64,000 bases of DNA from Bacteroidia bacterium (lineage in GTDB: Bacteria; Bacteroidota; Bacteroidia; J057): assembly GCA_033391075.1 (NCBI GenBank), contig JAWPMV010000001.1:3658001-3722000 (forward strand). Reading direction: 5' to 3'. The position numbers and the translations under genes are program-made. Below, piece after piece: positions 9,664 to 59,971 of the stretch. The stretch's first letter is position 1. Every line of letters starts with the position of its first letter. The notes beneath the pieces were generated by a model that worked only from the letters and a program-made list of their open reading frames with translations, searched no databases and had not been told where the DNA came from.

Positions 9664-9707
9664 AAAGACATCGACTGTGCAAAACGGTTCGGTGTCTTTT
9701 CCTTTTT
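9664..9707 (+). terminator. Rho-independent terminator after the DUF3179 gene
   Basis: AAAGACATCGA (9664-9674) pairs with TCGGTGTCTTT (9689-9699) over 11 bp with one T-G wobble, followed by a T-rich run to 9707. It overlaps the 5' extension of the next open frame, supporting the later ATG at 9722 for that gene. Confidence 0.7.
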
Positions 9708-9710
9708 ATA

Positions 9711-9718
9711 TATATTTG
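9711..9718 (+). promoter_or_regulatory. -7 promoter box just before the deformylase-peptidase gene
   Basis: TATATTTG matches the TAnnTTTG consensus and ends 3 bp before the ATG at 9722. If used, the transcript would be leaderless. No exact -33 TTTG is present because the terminator stem occupies that region. Confidence 0.4.
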
Positions 9719-9721
9719 AGG

Positions 9722-12214
9722 ATGAAAAGAACACTCCTGTTAACAGCATTATCCCTCATCCTGTTTTTTCCACTTTTTTCCCAGGATTCATTTAGTGAAA
9801 CTGAAAAAGAATTCATCCTCTCCGGTGAGAAAGAAAGCCCTATGCGCTTGTATTTAATCACCCAAAAAGAGGATTCAACTTTACTGAGAGAAAAGTCAGC
9901 AGATGTAAGGGTGGATAAAGAGGATGAAGTACTTCAATATTTCATCCGAAGATTATACAAAACCGTTACCGACCCAAAATCAATGGGAGTAGGCATAGCC
10001 GCTCCACAAGTAGGTCTTTCGAGAAGAATCATCTGGGTACAAAGATTTGACAAAGAAGGATTTCCTTTCGAAGTATATCTCAATCCCAAAATTGTACAAT
10101 ACACCAGTTTGAGACAGGAAGGCCTGGAAGGATGTCTGAGTATTCCGGATGTGAGAGATACTGTAAATCGCGGATATGCCATCCTGATTGAATACGATAA
10201 GCTTGACGGATCTCATCATTATGAGATGATCGAAGATTTTACAGCTGTAATCTTTCAACATGAGATCGATCACCTCAATGGCATCGTATTTACCGATCAC
10301 CTGAATGAAGAGATGGAGAATGCCCAGAAAGGCAAAGTCCTGGCATCAGATAAAGCCACTGAATCAAGTATCCCACGTGCAGATGAACGCTGGCAGCAAA
10401 GAATTTCCTATAAAATGGAAATCGACATGGATGTACAGAAGGATCAGTTAAGCGGAGTTCAAAATATCGCATACACCAATCATTCACCCGATACCCTCAA
10501 TTCTGTTTTTTATCATCTTTACTTCAATGCTTTTCAACCAGGTAGTATGATGGATGTGCGTTCCAGAAGTATCCCTGATCCGGACGGTCGTGTCAGAGAT
10601 CGAATTTTTCATCTGGAAGAAGATCAGATTGGGTATCAAAAAATCAAATCTCTCAAATACCGCGGGGAAGCCATAGAGTTTAACATGCAGGGAACTATTC
10701 TGGAAGTAGAGCTCCCTTCTCCCATTTTACCTGGGGAAACGGTACAATTGGATATGGAATTTGAGGCGCAGGTTCCCCTACAAATCCGTAGAACCGGTAG
10801 AGATAATCGCGAAGGCATTGAATATTCAATGGCTCAGTGGTATCCGAAGCTGTGTGAGTATGATTATGAAGGATGGCATGCCAATCCCTATGTAGGCAGA
10901 GAATTCTATGGGGTTTGGGGAGACTTTGATGTAACCATCAATATTGATAAGAAGTACGTAGTTGCAGCTTCAGGCTATTTACAAAACCCCAATAAAATCG
11001 GGCATGGATACGAGGATGAAGGAGTTGAAATTGAGCCGGTCGAAGGGGATAAATTGAGCTGGCGTTTCATCGCCCCGAATGTACATGATTTTCTTTGGGC
11101 AGCTGATCCGGACTATCGCCATACCAAACACCAGGTCCCTGATGGTCCTATGCTTCATTTCTTTTATCAGGTGGACTCTACCCGCAACAATTGGGAGAAA
11201 CTTCCTGAAGATGCTTCAAAAGCATTTCAAATCCTGAATAAGACCTTTGGCAAATATCCCTATAAACAATACTCTGTGATCCAGGGAGGAGATGGGGGAA
11301 TGGAATATCCCATGGCGACCCTAATCACAGGATCTCGTTCTTATGGAGGTCTCCTTGGAGTTACGGTACATGAAGCCATCCATAGCTGGTATCAAATGGT
11401 ACTGGGAAGTAATGAGTCTCTCTATCCCTGGATGGACGAAGGATTCACCAGTTTTGCCAGTAGCTATGTATTGGACAAGATCAACAATAAGAATAGCCTG
11501 AATCCCTATGCGGGTTCATATTTCGGATACCAAAGCCTGGTGCAAGCCAATGCAGTTGAGCCTATGAGCATGCATTCAGATCATTATAGTCTGAATAGAG
11601 CATATATTACCTCTGCCTATTCCCGGGGAGCCATCGCGCTTAACCAACTAAGTTATATCATGGGCGAGGAGAAATTCTATCCAGCCATGCTTCGCTACTA
11701 TAATACCTGGAAATTCAAGCATCCCAATGTAACCGATTTCAAACGCGTGATGGAAAAAGAATCCGGTCTGGAACTGGATTGGTATTTTGAATACTGGATC
11801 AATAGTACGCACAATATTGACTATGAGGTCAGTACGCTGGAAGCCTTTAAAAAAGGAAGCAAGGTAAGCTTGAAGAGAGTAGGTAAAATGCCGATGCCAT
11901 TGGACATTCTTGTTACCTATAAAGATGGGAGTCAGGAGCTGATTTATATTCCCCTCGTTATGATGCGGGGCGAGAAAGAGGCTGAAGCCTGGTATGGGGA
12001 GGTAAAAAGGACGGTATTAGAAGACTGGCCCTGGACAAACGAAGAATATACCTTCACCCTCGATAAGAATCCCAAAAATATTGATCGTATTGTGATTGAT
12101 CCCAGCTACCGGGTAGCTGATATTGATCGTAAGAACAATTATTTCCCGTCAAGTAGTAGAAAAAAAGGCGGTATGTTTGGCTCAAGAATGAAGCGAGAAG
12201 AGATACGGGAATAA
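9722..12214 (+). CDS. Exported fusion: peptide deformylase + M1 aminopeptidase
   Basis: An 830-residue two-enzyme protein, counting from the ATG at 9722 (an upstream in-frame ATG lies in the terminator). The signal peptide is MKRTLLLTALSLILFFPLFSQ. Residues about 38-205 are a peptide deformylase with all three motifs: GVGIAAPQ (89-96), EGCLS (136-140, metal ligand Cys138) and QHEIDH (179-184, His180, Glu181, His184). Residues about 215-770 are a gluzincin M1 peptidase with GGMEYP (525-530), HEAIH (550-554) and Glu573, exactly the HExxH-X18-E spacing. Both active sites look intact. The pair could deformylate and then trim formyl-Met peptides outside the cytoplasm; this role is inference. Confidence 0.85.
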   Translation: MKRTLLLTALSLILFFPLFSQDSFSETEKEFILSGEKESPMRLYLITQKEDSTLLREKSADVRVDKEDEVLQYFIRRLYKTVTDPKSMGVGIAAPQVGLSRRIIWVQRFDKEGFPFEVYLNPKIVQYTSLRQEGLEGCLSIPDVRDTVNRGYAILIEYDKLDGSHHYEMIEDFTAVIFQHEIDHLNGIVFTDHLNEEMENAQKGKVLASDKATESSIPRADERWQQRISYKMEIDMDVQKDQLSGVQNIAYTNHSPDTLNSVFYHLYFNAFQPGSMMDVRSRSIPDPDGRVRDRIFHLEEDQIGYQKIKSLKYRGEAIEFNMQGTILEVELPSPILPGETVQLDMEFEAQVPLQIRRTGRDNREGIEYSMAQWYPKLCEYDYEGWHANPYVGREFYGVWGDFDVTINIDKKYVVAASGYLQNPNKIGHGYEDEGVEIEPVEGDKLSWRFIAPNVHDFLWAADPDYRHTKHQVPDGPMLHFFYQVDSTRNNWEKLPEDASKAFQILNKTFGKYPYKQYSVIQGGDGGMEYPMATLITGSRSYGGLLGVTVHEAIHSWYQMVLGSNESLYPWMDEGFTSFASSYVLDKINNKNSLNPYAGSYFGYQSLVQANAVEPMSMHSDHYSLNRAYITSAYSRGAIALNQLSYIMGEEKFYPAMLRYYNTWKFKHPNVTDFKRVMEKESGLELDWYFEYWINSTHNIDYEVSTLEAFKKGSKVSLKRVGKMPMPLDILVTYKDGSQELIYIPLVMMRGEKEAEAWYGEVKRTVLEDWPWTNEEYTFTLDKNPKNIDRIVIDPSYRVADIDRKNNYFPSSSRKKGGMFGSRMKREEIRE

Positions 12215-29913: not shown

Positions 29914-32286
29914 ATGCGCTACTATTATCAAAAATTCAGCAGTTGGATAAAAGAAAAACAAGCGAGAATAAAGCCTGGCAACAGGGCTTTTATGGGCGCT
30001 CAAAAGGGTTTACTGTATTTTTCAATAGCCATATTTTCTATATCTGGTCTTCTAACTACCCTTTCATCCAATGACTGGAGATTTATCCTCTTCCTGATTG
30101 CATTTGCTGCCAGTAGCCTCTTAGGAGGGATTCTCATTTCCAGACTTTCCCGCAAACTTAATCGCCTTCCCAAAAAATTCCATTGGACCCTGATAGCCTC
30201 TATTCCTCTTCTTCTGATAGCAGGTGGATTTTCAGGGAAGCACCTATTTTATATGATGATCATGGCTTCTCTTTTGGGAGCCTCTGTCGCCGTTTTGAGT
30301 TCAAATGTCTTTCGAGAAAAACCCAGGGCTCACAAAATCACAACATTTATAGGCTTAGGTCTCGGAAGTATCATGCTCATTGCAGCCATATTCTATTTTG
30401 CTCCCAGAGGCTTTGAGTTGGATGATCCTTTGCCAGAAGCGAGTAGCCCTAAATGGTCTTATCCGACCTTGGCTGATCCTAGCGAAACCGGTGAGTATAC
30501 AGTCAAGGAATTTTTCTATGGAAGCGGAAAGGACAAACATCGTGATGGATTCGGTGCCGCTGCGGATTATATAAGCCCAACAGTTGATGGAACTGCTTTT
30601 TTGGATGATTGGGATGGTTTTGGAGGATGGTATAGGACTTGGTACTGGGGACATGATTATCGAGAACTCCCCTTAAATGCCCAGGTTTGGTATCCGGAAG
30701 GAGAAGGACCCTTTCCCCTTGTGCTCATCACCCATGGCAACCACGGCATGCAGGATTATTCAGATGTGGGTTATGGATATTTGGGGGAAATGCTGGCAAG
30801 TCGGGGCTATATTTTTGCAACGGTAGATGAGAATTTCCTTAATGGTTCCTGGTCCGATATTTTTGGGGGACTGGAAAAGGAAAATGATGCCCGAGCATGG
30901 ATACTATTGGAACATCTGAAACTTTGGCATCAATGGAATGAAGAGGAAGAACATCCTTTTTTCGGGAAACTGGATACAGAGAATATTGCCCTTATCGGAC
31001 ACTCTCGAGGTGGAGAAGCTATGTCTCATGCAGCAGCCTTCAATCAGCTTTCTACTTATCCGGATGATGGAAGTGTAAAATTTGATTATGGCTTCAACCT
31101 CAAAGCCGTTTGTGCTATCGCCCCGGTAGATGGTCAATATCAACCGGGAAGGACAAGAACCTATTTCAATAATGTCAATTATTTCTCCTTGCATGGCGCA
31201 CAGGATGCTGATGTCACAAGTTTTTCCGGTTCACGGATATATGAAAGAGTAGGATTTACAGACTCACTCTACCACTTCAAATCGGGACTATATATTTATG
31301 GAGCCAATCATGGGCAATTCAATACCTCATGGGGCGACAATGATCGGGGTGGCGTTTCTTTCACCCGTTTACTCAACCTCAAACAATTGATGCCCGCAGC
31401 CGAGCAGGAGCAAATTGCCAAGGTGTATATCAGTGCTTTTCTGGATGCCTCCCTAAAAGGAAAAACAGAATACCTTCCCCTATTTACAGATGCCCGATTG
31501 GGAGCTGATTTCCTCCCCAAAAATGTTTACCTGAATCAGTTTGAGGATACGGAGATGCAGTTTCTGACTAAGTTTGATGAGGACCTGGATTTGAAAAGCA
31601 GTCCTTATCGTCCAAATAGCTTTTCTGCTTCAGCATTGACGGTCTGGAAGGAGGCCAATATTAAGATGAAATACGGAGTAAAAGATACTCGGGCTGTTTA
31701 TTTGGGATGGCATAGAGATGAGGAACCTACAGACACTGCTTTCTTTGATATGGAGGTAGCAGGAGCTGAGATCAAATTGGATTCCAGTAGTCAATTGGTT
31801 TTCAGCATGTCTCATGTAAAAGGATCTACAAATCCTAAATCCAAAGGGAAGTGGATCAATAATGAGGAAGAAAATGAATCTGAAGAGGAAGAAGATGAGG
31901 ATGAGGATGAGGATGAGGATGAGGATGAGGATGAGGATGAGGATGAGGATGAAGATAAGGAGGAGGAGGAAGGGTCTAAAAAGGCAGAAGGAATTGACCT
32001 GAGCATCCAACTTACAGATACACAAGGCAGACATATTTCATTTCCTTTAAGTGATTTCAGCCCCTTGAATAAATTACTTAAAGTCAAAGTAATGAAAGAT
32101 GATTTTATCTTCGGGGATCCTCAATCTGAAAGTATCTTTCAAAGCTATGTTTTTCCCCTGGAATCCTATCTTGAGAAGAACCCGACATTTGAAATCGAAT
32201 CACTACAAAGCATAAGATTTGTATTTAATAAGACGGAAAAAGGATTGCTGATCCTGGATAATATTGGTTTCCGAAGCCCCTGGTAA
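29914..32286 (+). CDS. Membrane-anchored alpha/beta hydrolase with acidic repeat
   Basis: A 790-residue protein. Five predicted transmembrane helices lie at about 32-50, 56-75, 88-106, 110-130 and 143-165. An alpha/beta hydrolase domain follows (about 195-530) with ITHGNHG as oxyanion region, nucleophile Ser364 in GHSRGG and a candidate His in GANHGQF. A C-terminal beta domain is interrupted by a tract of alternating Asp-Glu (about 661-679) coded by a GATGAG hexamer repeat. The hydrolase resembles cutinase/PET-hydrolase-like lipases. The active site would face outside if the fifth helix exits the membrane. Confidence 0.7.
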   Translation: MRYYYQKFSSWIKEKQARIKPGNRAFMGAQKGLLYFSIAIFSISGLLTTLSSNDWRFILFLIAFAASSLLGGILISRLSRKLNRLPKKFHWTLIASIPLLLIAGGFSGKHLFYMMIMASLLGASVAVLSSNVFREKPRAHKITTFIGLGLGSIMLIAAIFYFAPRGFELDDPLPEASSPKWSYPTLADPSETGEYTVKEFFYGSGKDKHRDGFGAAADYISPTVDGTAFLDDWDGFGGWYRTWYWGHDYRELPLNAQVWYPEGEGPFPLVLITHGNHGMQDYSDVGYGYLGEMLASRGYIFATVDENFLNGSWSDIFGGLEKENDARAWILLEHLKLWHQWNEEEEHPFFGKLDTENIALIGHSRGGEAMSHAAAFNQLSTYPDDGSVKFDYGFNLKAVCAIAPVDGQYQPGRTRTYFNNVNYFSLHGAQDADVTSFSGSRIYERVGFTDSLYHFKSGLYIYGANHGQFNTSWGDNDRGGVSFTRLLNLKQLMPAAEQEQIAKVYISAFLDASLKGKTEYLPLFTDARLGADFLPKNVYLNQFEDTEMQFLTKFDEDLDLKSSPYRPNSFSASALTVWKEANIKMKYGVKDTRAVYLGWHRDEEPTDTAFFDMEVAGAEIKLDSSSQLVFSMSHVKGSTNPKSKGKWINNEEENESEEEEDEDEDEDEDEDEDEDEDEDEDKEEEEGSKKAEGIDLSIQLTDTQGRHISFPLSDFSPLNKLLKVKVMKDDFIFGDPQSESIFQSYVFPLESYLEKNPTFEIESLQSIRFVFNKTEKGLLILDNIGFRSPW
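31894..31947 (+). repeat. GATGAG hexanucleotide tandem repeat in coding sequence
   Basis: Nine perfect consecutive GATGAG units (54 bp) encode Asp-Glu repeats inside the hydrolase gene at 29914, with an imperfect unit GATGAA next. Loss or gain of units keeps the frame, so length can vary without inactivating the gene. Confidence 0.95.
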
Positions 32287-56626: not shown

Positions 56627-57409
56627 TTACAAAAATTTAAAATTCACTGCCAGGCTAGAGAATACCGGAACTTTTTGTCCCTTGATCTCTCCCGGGTTCC
56701 AGGCTGGCATAGAGCGGATCACCCTAAGGGCTTCCTCATCGCAGCCAAAGCCTATCCCTTTCATCACTTCCGGACTGGTAATGGCTCCATCAGGCTGAAT
56801 AACAAAGCGAACATATACCGTACCTTCTGTTTTGTTCTTAACAGCTTGCCTTGGATAGCGAATTTGTTTGGAAAGAAATTGATAGAGTGCAGCTTCCCCG
56901 CCCGGAAATGAAGGCATAATGTCAGCGGCTACTACCGGCTCATTCACCTCCAATCTACTAGCGGTGGTTTGCACTTCTCTTTTCACCTTATCCATTTCCG
57001 GATCAAAAGCATTGCTGCTTACGGTCTCCAACTCCATATTTTCAGAGGGGATATTTGTGATCTGGGTCCGGGTGGTAGAGGGTGCAGAAATGATCCCTGC
57101 GATATAACGAAATTCATCTATACTTCTCAGGGTATCGATCTGACCATTCGCAGAATTCTTAACAATGATTCCATTGGGCTCTTCCTTCAACATTTTTGCA
57201 ACCCCCTGCAAACTTAGATCAGCACTGGCATAGATAGGCTTCAAAGGTAGAGGATTTTTTCTCATGTTTAGGAAGATACCAAATCCTGTCAAGGCTAGCA
57301 CCAAAACGGTACCTGTATAGATAAACAGTTTTTTACGTTTGGCTGCCTTTTCCTTACGTTCTTTCTCAAGAATGTAGGTCAATAATTTGGTATTCCCTTT
57401 GTTACTCAT
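56627..57409 (-). CDS. TonB-family protein with C-terminal TonB domain
   Basis: A 260-residue inner-membrane protein: short charged cytoplasmic tail (residues 1-26), one helix (LFIYTGTVLVLALTGFGIFL, about 28-47), a periplasmic spacer and a C-terminal TonB domain (MPSFPGGEAALYQFLSKQIRYPRQA, GTVYVRFVIQPDGAI, NPGEIKGQKVPVFSSLAVNFKF). Such proteins contact TonB-dependent receptors. The unusually long lysine-rich cytoplasmic part and the 6-bp spacing from the Hsp70-like/pseudokinase gene suggest the two work together, not as a general energy transducer. No ExbB/ExbD genes are near. Confidence 0.85.
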   Translation of the reverse strand: MSNKGNTKLLTYILEKERKEKAAKRKKLFIYTGTVLVLALTGFGIFLNMRKNPLPLKPIYASADLSLQGVAKMLKEEPNGIIVKNSANGQIDTLRSIDEFRYIAGIISAPSTTRTQITNIPSENMELETVSSNAFDPEMDKVKREVQTTASRLEVNEPVVAADIMPSFPGGEAALYQFLSKQIRYPRQAVKNKTEGTVYVRFVIQPDGAITSPEVMKGIGFGCDEEALRVIRSMPAWNPGEIKGQKVPVFSSLAVNFKFL

Positions 57410-57415
57410 GTTTTA

Positions 57416-59971
57416 TTAAAGCTGAAACTTTTCTCTAAAATCCTGATAAAATGCGTCTCCAAGTAGGCCTGCAAAGACTTCATGTGTTCTCTCCAACATT
57501 TGTTCTGCGCTTGCATCTTCCGAAGTAAAGCCTACTACTTTGATTTCCATATTCTTCTGTAGATTCCACTTTCTTTTGGAGATAACCAGAATATTGTCCT
57601 CACTTAGTTCTGCATGTCCGGTAGGCAATTCGCGGATTTCCTTGAATACCTGAAGGATAAATTTCAGATCTGTACTGCTAAGCTCATCAATATCCATTTT
57701 GTTGTCTAGCCCAGATTTCTTCACATAGCTCTTCAAAGAGTTTCTTTCGATATAAGGACGGAAGTAAAACAATCCTTCCTTAGCCTCTGTGATTTCGCTC
57801 ATGTCCTGATAATAGCTCAATTCCTTCTTATGAAGTTTTTTGAATCGGGCCACCTTATCAGCATCTTCCAAATCAGCGGCTGACAATACTCGCACAGACT
57901 TCAATTCCTGATCCCCTACCATCATTACTTTCTTAGTAGAAAATTCATCATCTGGTAAGGTCCCTTTTATGCTAAAGAGATCGCTGAGAGAAATAGAAGC
58001 ATCCAGATTTTTCTTGACCGGTGCGATATTCTCAGACATCTCTTCTTTCTCATTTATCTGCTCTTCCAGCTGCTCCTCAATTTGCTCTTCAATTTGCTCC
58101 TCCAGCTTCTCTTCTATCTTTTCTTTCACCTGAACTGCCTCAGGTTGTGTATTTCCGATATTGGCATGATTACCATTGCTGGAAACAGGCTCCTGGGTAA
58201 GTTCTTCCGGAAGCTTATCCAGAATGTCCATATTTTCAACTTCCAAAGAGAACATATCTTCAGAAATAGGTTTATCAACAATGGATTTCTCTATTTCAGG
58301 AACAATTTCTTCTTTACTCAGCTCTGCAGAAATATCCGTATCCAATACGTCTACTTTGGCAGGAGTATCCTGAATTTTGGCTTCAACTGACAATTCATTT
58401 TCTACCGAAGAAAGTTCATCCATGTTCAGATCCAGCTCAGACTCTGCATCAATATCAGACATATTGCTGATTTCCTCAGAACTCAGTGAAGCACTTTCTT
58501 CTTCATCTTTCGCCAAAACTTCATCCAGAGAAGCTAACAACTCTTCATCCGAATAATCACTTAAGTCAGTATCAAGTTTCTCCTCAAGCTCAATCTTTAC
58601 TTCCTCATCTTTTTTTTCCTCTATTTCTTCTTTTACCTCTTCTTCTGTCGTGTCCAGATCATAAATAGAAAGATCTTCTGCCGGCTCGGAAGTATATGAA
58701 GTCTCGCTTTTGCCAGGCGTTGTGTACAAGCCTACCCCTTCCCCTTCTTTCTGCAATTCAATTTTGCTCAGCACCTCAGTAATGTTCCAGCTGATAACCA
58801 TTTCAGGAATCCCCAAATTGGCACCACGCTCTTTGAACATTTTTTCGTAATCAGCTTGCTTGGAAGGATCCACACATGTTTTTGCGATTTCCTGAAGAAG
58901 GGAATCACGATCCTCTTTGACTTTCAGCTCAGCAGCAATTTTTGCTCTTTTCTCCGCTTCCAGTCTTTTTCTCTCTTCCTCTGCCAGACGGATTCTCTCT
59001 GCCTCCATGACCTGTTCCGTCCTATTGGCCAGGCCATTTACTATCACAGAAAATTCGTCCTTGCTATTTTCTAAATCCAGACCAATGACCTTATTGCTAA
59101 TCTTAAGATCTTTATTGATATAATTTTTAAAGGCCTGGGTACGCAGGAAGCTTCCTATCAGAAGGATGTTTCCCACTTTATTTTTTTCTAACTCTTTGTT
59201 GCTGAATTTCTCAGCCAACTTGTCTTTATTGACCAGTAAGAGTTCTTCAAATTTTTCTGGCTTCAGGCTTACTTCTGCTTCCAATTGAACCGAGTCTGTA
59301 GTTTTGCTTACTACGTAGGTGTGCGTTGGATTAGGTTCTTCCAACTGGCGAGCCAGTTGTGCCTGTCCTTTGAAATCAACTGTCAGTCCTGCGACGGAGC
59401 ATTCTGCCATCAATTCCGTCAATACCCGGTCATTTCCTGCCAGGGTACCAAAATCTTTATAAGAATGGAATTCAAAATGTTCGTCATTGAAGAGTGCAGC
59501 TTTTCCTAATTCTTTCAGATTAGGCGCTGGTGCATGCTCATCAATATTTTGATAACAAAGGTGAGTGTAATCATCCATGGATTCCAGGACCATCACATTT
59601 TTCTCTGTGACTTTGTCGCTATCCGGAAGCCCATGCATGAAAGAGACAACGATATTGTCTCCATGGATATATTCCAAATCCAGGGATTGGGAATTATTGA
59701 TAGTATCAATGATTTTTTTCTTGTCTTCCTCGCTTTTCATGTCAACGGGAAAGGCAATGGCAGTAGGTATGGCTCCTGCGAGCTTCTTGCCATCTTTTTT
59801 GGCCTGGTCTTTATATGCCTGGCCAATAGCATCTAAATGAGTGGCTAATACTTCATGCGGAGAGGAAGGCTCATAATTGAAATGGCCTCTTCCTTTGATG
59901 TCCAGCAGTTGTGCTTTATCAGTCTTAATCCCCGCAAGTAGTTTTCTCTTAGTAAATATAATACAAAGCAT
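57416..59971 (-). CDS. Hsp70-like / acidic linker / pseudokinase protein
   Basis: An 851-residue cytoplasmic protein, started at ATG 59971 because the upstream extension is not protein-like. Residues about 8-300 have the layout of a degenerate Hsp70/actin ATPase: AGIKTDKAQLL replaces the usual GIDLGT, and NILLIGSFLRTQAFKNYI resembles the adenosine loop. A coiled coil (about 322-350) and a very acidic, repetitive region (about 430-650) follow. Residues about 655-851 resemble a protein kinase, but HRD is His786-Ala-Glu788 and DFG is Val813-Gly-Phe815, so it should be inactive. It is co-transcribed with a TonB-like protein. I know no described protein with this architecture. Confidence 0.7.
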   Translation of the reverse strand: MLCIIFTKRKLLAGIKTDKAQLLDIKGRGHFNYEPSSPHEVLATHLDAIGQAYKDQAKKDGKKLAGAIPTAIAFPVDMKSEEDKKKIIDTINNSQSLDLEYIHGDNIVVSFMHGLPDSDKVTEKNVMVLESMDDYTHLCYQNIDEHAPAPNLKELGKAALFNDEHFEFHSYKDFGTLAGNDRVLTELMAECSVAGLTVDFKGQAQLARQLEEPNPTHTYVVSKTTDSVQLEAEVSLKPEKFEELLLVNKDKLAEKFSNKELEKNKVGNILLIGSFLRTQAFKNYINKDLKISNKVIGLDLENSKDEFSVIVNGLANRTEQVMEAERIRLAEEERKRLEAEKRAKIAAELKVKEDRDSLLQEIAKTCVDPSKQADYEKMFKERGANLGIPEMVISWNITEVLSKIELQKEGEGVGLYTTPGKSETSYTSEPAEDLSIYDLDTTEEEVKEEIEEKKDEEVKIELEEKLDTDLSDYSDEELLASLDEVLAKDEEESASLSSEEISNMSDIDAESELDLNMDELSSVENELSVEAKIQDTPAKVDVLDTDISAELSKEEIVPEIEKSIVDKPISEDMFSLEVENMDILDKLPEELTQEPVSSNGNHANIGNTQPEAVQVKEKIEEKLEEQIEEQIEEQLEEQINEKEEMSENIAPVKKNLDASISLSDLFSIKGTLPDDEFSTKKVMMVGDQELKSVRVLSAADLEDADKVARFKKLHKKELSYYQDMSEITEAKEGLFYFRPYIERNSLKSYVKKSGLDNKMDIDELSSTDLKFILQVFKEIRELPTGHAELSEDNILVISKRKWNLQKNMEIKVVGFTSEDASAEQMLERTHEVFAGLLGDAFYQDFREKFQL

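Follow-up and report, generated by a model that had tools for sequence, protein, structure and literature searches.

What is encoded by the 851-codon reading frame in which a first-pass annotation, made from the sequence alone, saw an Hsp70-like ATPase fold joined to a pseudokinase, and what might such a protein do? The frame lies in the window, by which we mean the whole 64,000-nt stretch of DNA that was analysed (contig JAWPMV010000001.1, positions 3,658,001 to 3,722,000); the genome, 9.5 Mb in size, belongs to the class Bacteroidia. Our analysis confirmed that the observation on this ORF is real. The parts of the predicted protein follow one another in the order degenerate Hsp70-like domain, coiled coil and helical module, acidic linker and pseudokinase, at these window positions:

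57416..59971 (-): whole gene, 851 aa, ATG at 59971
58967..59971 (-): predicted Hsp70/actin (ASKHA)-like domain with degenerate nucleotide motifs, residues 1-335 (AF2, Foldseek, hhalign)
59924..59965 (-): phosphate-1 position (GIDLGT in Hsp70), reading CIIFTKRKLLAGIK, residues 3-16, degenerate in all members
59138..59170 (-): adenosine-motif-like NILLIGSFLRT, residues 268-278, with one invariant Gly
58733..58966 (-): most of the coiled coil and the conserved helical module, residues 336-413
58010..58732 (-): acidic low-complexity linker, residues 414-654, length and charge not conserved
57419..58009 (-): pseudokinase domain with truncated C-lobe, residues 655-851 (AF2, Foldseek, hhalign)
57608..57616 (-): pseudo-HRD H786-A787-E788 (His in 11/11 members, Asp in 2/11)
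57524..57535 (-): pseudo-DFG V813-G814-F815-T816, read as VGF or GFT (Asp at either position in 0/11)

The reading frame and its relatives

The frame at 57416-59971 on the minus strand yields 851 aa with no stop. Besides the window protein we found 10 homologues of full or nearly full length, every one of them from a single Bacteroidia family; motif and identity counts given here refer to these 11 aligned members, window protein included. The homologues stay open and align end to end at 24-45% identity, which indicates that the ORF is more than a chance frame. An origin as a pseudogene or frameshift artefact was rejected, as the frame is open and conserved in 10 genomes. The ATG at 59971 is the correct start, since Met1 is invariant in the 11 aligned members, and a longer 894-aa reading from an upstream TTG was rejected because the homologues begin at the same Met. 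No membrane helix was found in the protein.

Homologues are present in 10 of the 13 genomes of the host's own family and in none of the remaining genomes of the same order. The sole out-of-family match in a class sample of 395 genomes was an ORF assigned by Pfam to the protein kinases; it spans profile positions 582-647, which lie before and at the catalytic loop. No additional match came from a phylum sample of 395 genomes. Scanning contigs with the window protein as a single query returned no relatives, and scanning with the alignment as query returned four loci, all in genomes already counted. The host genome also carries two paralogues: the second copy is full-length (28% identity) and the third appears to be frameshifted; a partial twelfth copy lies at locus L036. 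Searches with the window protein assigned no family in Pfam, NCBIfam or PADLOC and gave nothing usable against PDB sequences. A role in anti-phage defence was rejected, PADLOC being without a match, and a functional tie to the adjacent pentose-phosphate genes was rejected because this synteny is seen in some relatives only.

Two other genes of the window are recorded here for their own sake. The plus-strand gene at 9677-12214 combines a likely signal peptide with a peptide deformylase domain (PF01327, E 2.6e-35) and a peptidase M1 domain (PF01433, E 1.1e-13), an unusual pairing for an apparently exported protein. The plus-strand gene at 29914-32286 encodes a hydrolase-like protein with a long alternating Asp-Glu run (EDEDEDED...) in its C-terminal part.

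A pseudokinase, a probable Hsp70-like fold and the region between them

The C-terminal domain is the best conserved globular part of the protein. Its AlphaFold2 model, built on five sequences (pLDDT 86.8, pTM 0.80), places strands and helices in kinase order, with an N-lobe including alpha-C and hinge followed by the catalytic loop. All 50 of the top 50 Foldseek matches to this model in PDB were protein kinases, with M. tuberculosis PknI in first place (best E 4.8e-6, probability 1.00), and hhalign aligned the domain to kinases of the same genomes at 96.7% (E 4e-10), with eight unrelated control families at E of at least 0.12. The kinase layout that had been read into the last ~200 residues was thus borne out, and an inactivated kinase fold is strongly supported by the model and the profile comparisons.

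The catalytic residues of this fold have largely gone. The window protein lacks the VAIK Lys, the HRD Asp and the DFG Asp. Family-wide, the beta-3 (VAIK) position holds Lys in three members and Arg in eight, the alpha-C Glu is invariant and the catalytic-loop Asn is kept in 10 of 11. The annotated change of HRD to HAE at residues 786-788 is present in the window protein; it does not extend to the whole family, since two members keep the Asp. The change of DFG to VGF was found at residues 813-815 as annotated, and GFT (814-816) is an equally possible reading, given that the invariant F815 sits where the DFG Phe would; neither reading contains an Asp. Only about 35 residues remain past the pseudo-DFG, 27 of them predicted as helical, in two helices; the larger part of the C-lobe, including the activation segment and alpha-F to alpha-I, is thus missing. 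The domain is a pseudokinase across the whole family. It shares with PknB/PknI-type Ser/Thr kinases and with the pseudokinases ActPs1-3, GLW, CP1, DYD and DLHK the N-lobe, the alpha-C Glu and the catalytic-loop His and Asn, and DYD and ActPs2 also carry Arg for Lys (PMC12599244). It differs from bacterial kinases and pseudokinases in its shortened C-lobe, the loss of the DFG Asp and its junction to an Hsp70-like domain. Bacterial pseudokinase functions are largely unknown, and the text of a 2025 review of them contains neither Hsp70, TonB, 'bacteroid' nor 'fused' (PMC12599244).

At the N-terminus an Hsp70/actin fold is moderately supported. In the AlphaFold2 model of this domain residues 1-115 were modelled well and run b-b-b-a-b-a-b-a, as lobe I does in actin/Hsp70 proteins. 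Residues 117-302 (lobe II) were modelled poorly, with pLDDT below 50; we believe the small input of only 5 sequences probably cost lobe II. The top Foldseek match was the T. thermophilus DnaK nucleotide-binding domain (E 3e-3, probability 0.96), and by our own count 45 of the top 50 matches were ASKHA proteins (Hsp70, hexokinase, NTPDase, ROK-type kinase, MamK, actin). hhalign matched the domain to DnaK at E 0.003, with unrelated control families at E of at least 0.17. This match covers the Hsp70 segment that precedes and crosses the adenosine motif; when the domain is aligned to DnaK globally, the lobe I part of the alignment carries no meaning. Alignment to MreB and to 830-aa Hsp70 variants gave nothing significant, and the window protein had no match in Pfam at E up to 10. 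On these comparisons the N-terminal domain probably adopts an ASKHA fold, and Hsp70 is, with somewhat less certainty, the favoured candidate for its nearest kin.

The Hsp70 layout assigned to the N-terminus therefore stands in part: lobe I, the DnaK fold match and the hhalign result speak for it, while lobe II is unmodelled and the best fold E is 3e-3. The adenosine-like ILLIGSFLRT is indeed present, at residues 269-278, and GIDLGT is indeed lacking, the phosphate-1 and phosphate-2 signatures being absent in 11/11 members. The first-pass annotation had proposed structure prediction, fold search and profile comparison of both ends. At the kinase end the folds agreed throughout (E 4.8e-6); at the Hsp70 end the search led to DnaK at the modest E value noted above, and the family profile PF00012 matched none of the 11 members at E up to 1. 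The degeneracy suspected in both enzyme cores was found family-wide, in the losses of catalytic and nucleotide motifs. Like the Hsp70/DnaK nucleotide-binding domain, the protein has the lobe I strand-helix order and a pre-adenosine stretch that aligns to DnaK; unlike it, the protein lacks GIDLGT and DLGGGT, retains one Gly of the adenosine motif and lies below Pfam detection. The Hsp70 substrate-binding domain is absent, and a predicted coiled coil and helices, then the linker and the pseudokinase, take its place.

The predicted long helix starts at residue 304, and the coiled coil with its helical module spans about 304-412. The module itself (about 369-412, consensus CvDPsK..YE..F...GA.LGIP..VI.WNI.E.LS) is 40-65% identical in 8 of the 10 homologues and absent in the two most divergent. 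The earlier picture of an acidic coiled linker as the sole joint was thus incomplete: in most members a conserved coiled coil and helical module also lie between the folds. The roughly 220 acidic residues said to join the two ends correspond in the window protein to a 241-aa linker (32% D+E, net charge -59, pI 4.05), and neither its length (25-241 aa among the 11 members) nor its charge is conserved. Conservation is lowest in the linker, with this spread in length and about 20% identity to the window protein, against 32-61% identity for the pseudokinase and 23-44% for the N-terminal domain. The better conservation of the pseudokinase indicates that it is maintained and not decaying.

A bitopic TonB_C protein and related tail genes

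The gene that follows was overlooked in the first-pass annotation, and we infer that it belongs to the functional unit:

56627..57409 (-): partner gene, bitopic inner-membrane protein with TonB_C, 260 aa, starting 6 nt downstream of the 851-codon gene
57329..57409 (-): cytosolic tail of the partner, residues 1-27, net +7, YxxxxExxEK then a basic run; proposed docking peptide
56636..56866 (-): TonB_C domain of the partner, residues 182-258 (Pfam)

In order, the partner comprises a cytosolic tail of ~27 aa that carries a conserved motif, a single membrane helix, a periplasmic part and TonB_C (PF03544, E 6.9e-18). In 9 of the 11 aligned loci, among them two paralogous loci of one genome, the next gene downstream encodes a homologue of it, and the other neighbours vary. 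No partner adjoins the copy in G009 or one of the paralogues in G001; at L036 a partner is present beside the partial copy, split over two ORFs. Partner tails, about 26-33 residues long and usually net positive, contain a basic run as well as a motif similar to Y-x4-E-x2-E-[KR]. Like TonB, the partner has a C-terminal TonB_C and one N-terminal membrane helix, and the YP motif of TonB_C is conserved among partners. Unlike TonB, it has a longer tail with its own motif, a helix in which no conserved His was found among partners, several paralogues and, in some members of the partner family, a PKD domain in the periplasmic part.

The arrangement resembles FtsA-FtsN and PilM-PilN, in which the actin-superfamily proteins FtsA and PilM bind the roughly 30-residue cytosolic tails of bitopic FtsN and PilN; in the FtsN tail, of ~32 residues, basic stretches accompany a conserved motif (PMC7613929). 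Tail-binding proteins of the FtsA/PilM type use their IC subdomain. In both cases an actin-superfamily cytosolic protein is paired with a bitopic protein that has a tail of about 30 residues, the pairing here being known from the genes. It differs in the lost ATPase motifs, the fused pseudokinase and the TonB_C at the partner's periplasmic end.

The tail family is expanded, with 6 matches in the host genome. Within the order, the genomes with strong matches are exactly the 10 in which the fusion gene occurs; the tail family is absent from genus g9, which also lacks that gene, and another genome of the order, G015, has one weak match. Matches in the class sample outside the family were weak only. 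This co-occurrence is suggestive and not independent evidence, as the in-family absences all fall in one genus and phylogeny confounds it. Tail/TM/PKD proteins, some of them lacking TonB_C, were also seen in tandem clusters away from the fusion gene (L154:9055-12980 in G003, L153:9597-11976 in G000, L160:34-2047 in G009).

Other tail genes are adjoined in G000, G003, G004, G006 and G007 by a gene for a protein of about 305 aa, whose C-terminal segment is hydrophobic in those copies that were read completely. Its residues 1-75 match DnaJ J-domains over their full length (hhalign 79%, E 1.6e-5; controls at least 0.08), with AEFEL replacing HPD. This J-like protein is found in 9 of the 10 genomes that carry the fusion gene and also in G016, where it is co-directional with an 830-aa Hsp70 and a TerB gene. 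The 830-aa Hsp70, with intact GIDLGTTNS, is adjoined by a gene for a 109-124 aa protein (L224:4330-9118 in G016, L235:6257-9108 in G000, L225, L233). The surroundings of the J-like protein and tail genes suggest a wider system of degenerate chaperone parts.

Readings of the proposed two-gene module

The near-constant adjacency to a membrane protein with a TonB-like outer end suggests a scaffold by which the inside of the cell is linked with its envelope, and comparative genomics makes more specific the scaffolding role that the first-pass annotation had proposed. The reading we put forward, at about even odds, is a two-gene envelope module in which a double pseudoenzyme would act as a non-catalytic, membrane-attached scaffold that docks on the partner tail. 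The 851-aa cytosolic protein, its two folds spaced by the coiled coil and the variable linker, would bind the tail of the bitopic partner much as in FtsA-FtsN and PilM-PilN; docking may organise TonB_C proteins that would in turn touch the outer membrane or the cell wall, and the fold not holding the tail would bind a second partner. Computed support covers the folds (kinase strongly, Hsp70/actin moderately), the motif loss and the genetic linkage. From these we infer docking, signal direction and biological role.

The same parts could be arranged in other ways. An actin/Hsp70-like domain that polymerises, with the TonB_C protein anchoring the filament (cf. MreB-RodZ, FtsA-FtsN), would fit the actin-family fold, the coiled coil and the bitopic partner, as well as the third paralogue, in which the N-terminal domain is followed by a ~1000-aa coiled coil weakly like the crescentin rod; we consider this unlikely, as the nucleotide motifs are lost in all members, the closest match, Hsp70, does not polymerise like actin, and linker length varies widely. 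The third paralogue (L038:9885-13914; G000:C1, about 3,291,900) has its Hsp70-like domain split over two overlapping frames, possibly by a frameshift, and continues into the coiled coil without a pseudokinase.

TonB_C may instead point to energised outer-membrane transport, which could count against a scaffold. The partner would then be energised by ExbBD and work outer-membrane receptors, with the double pseudoenzyme regulating it from the cytosol. The conserved YP motif agrees with this, but canonical TonB needs a His in its membrane helix for ExbBD coupling, which the partners lack as a conserved residue, and no exbBD gene adjoining these loci was recognised by eye; we doubt this reading. 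It seems rather improbable, too, that one or both domains are ligand sensors that bind nucleotide without hydrolysis and switch conformation. The invariant alpha-C Glu, the catalytic-loop Asn in all but one member and a beta-3 Lys or Arg in 11/11 would suit such a sensor, but the DFG Asp, the Gly-rich loop and the Hsp70 phosphate loops are all lost. An active atypical kinase using migrated catalytic residues, to which the HxD of two members might point, was rejected as highly improbable, with no DFG Asp in any member and the C-lobe cut short before the activation segment.

For the docking scaffold that we prefer, the parts and the principle have precedents, and the combination, within the sources searched, has none: we found no description of the architecture in Pfam, NCBIfam or the open-access literature, in agreement with the earlier statement that no described protein has this domain order. 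More tentatively, one Bacteroidia family may possess an envelope-spanning system made from inactivated chaperone and kinase parts, in which the pseudo-Hsp70/pseudokinase scaffold and the pseudo-J protein each stand beside bitopic PKD/TonB_C proteins, the shared tail serves as a docking code, and the Hsp70 cycle has turned into a static assembly or sensing platform.

If the docking scaffold is real, it would be a bacterial case of two unrelated enzyme folds losing catalysis and being joined as one scaffold, and its near-constant membrane partner would make that function testable. The principle of FtsA-FtsN and PilM-PilN, that an actin-superfamily protein reads a bitopic tail, would extend to a new family, and bacterial pseudokinases would gain a concrete genetic context.
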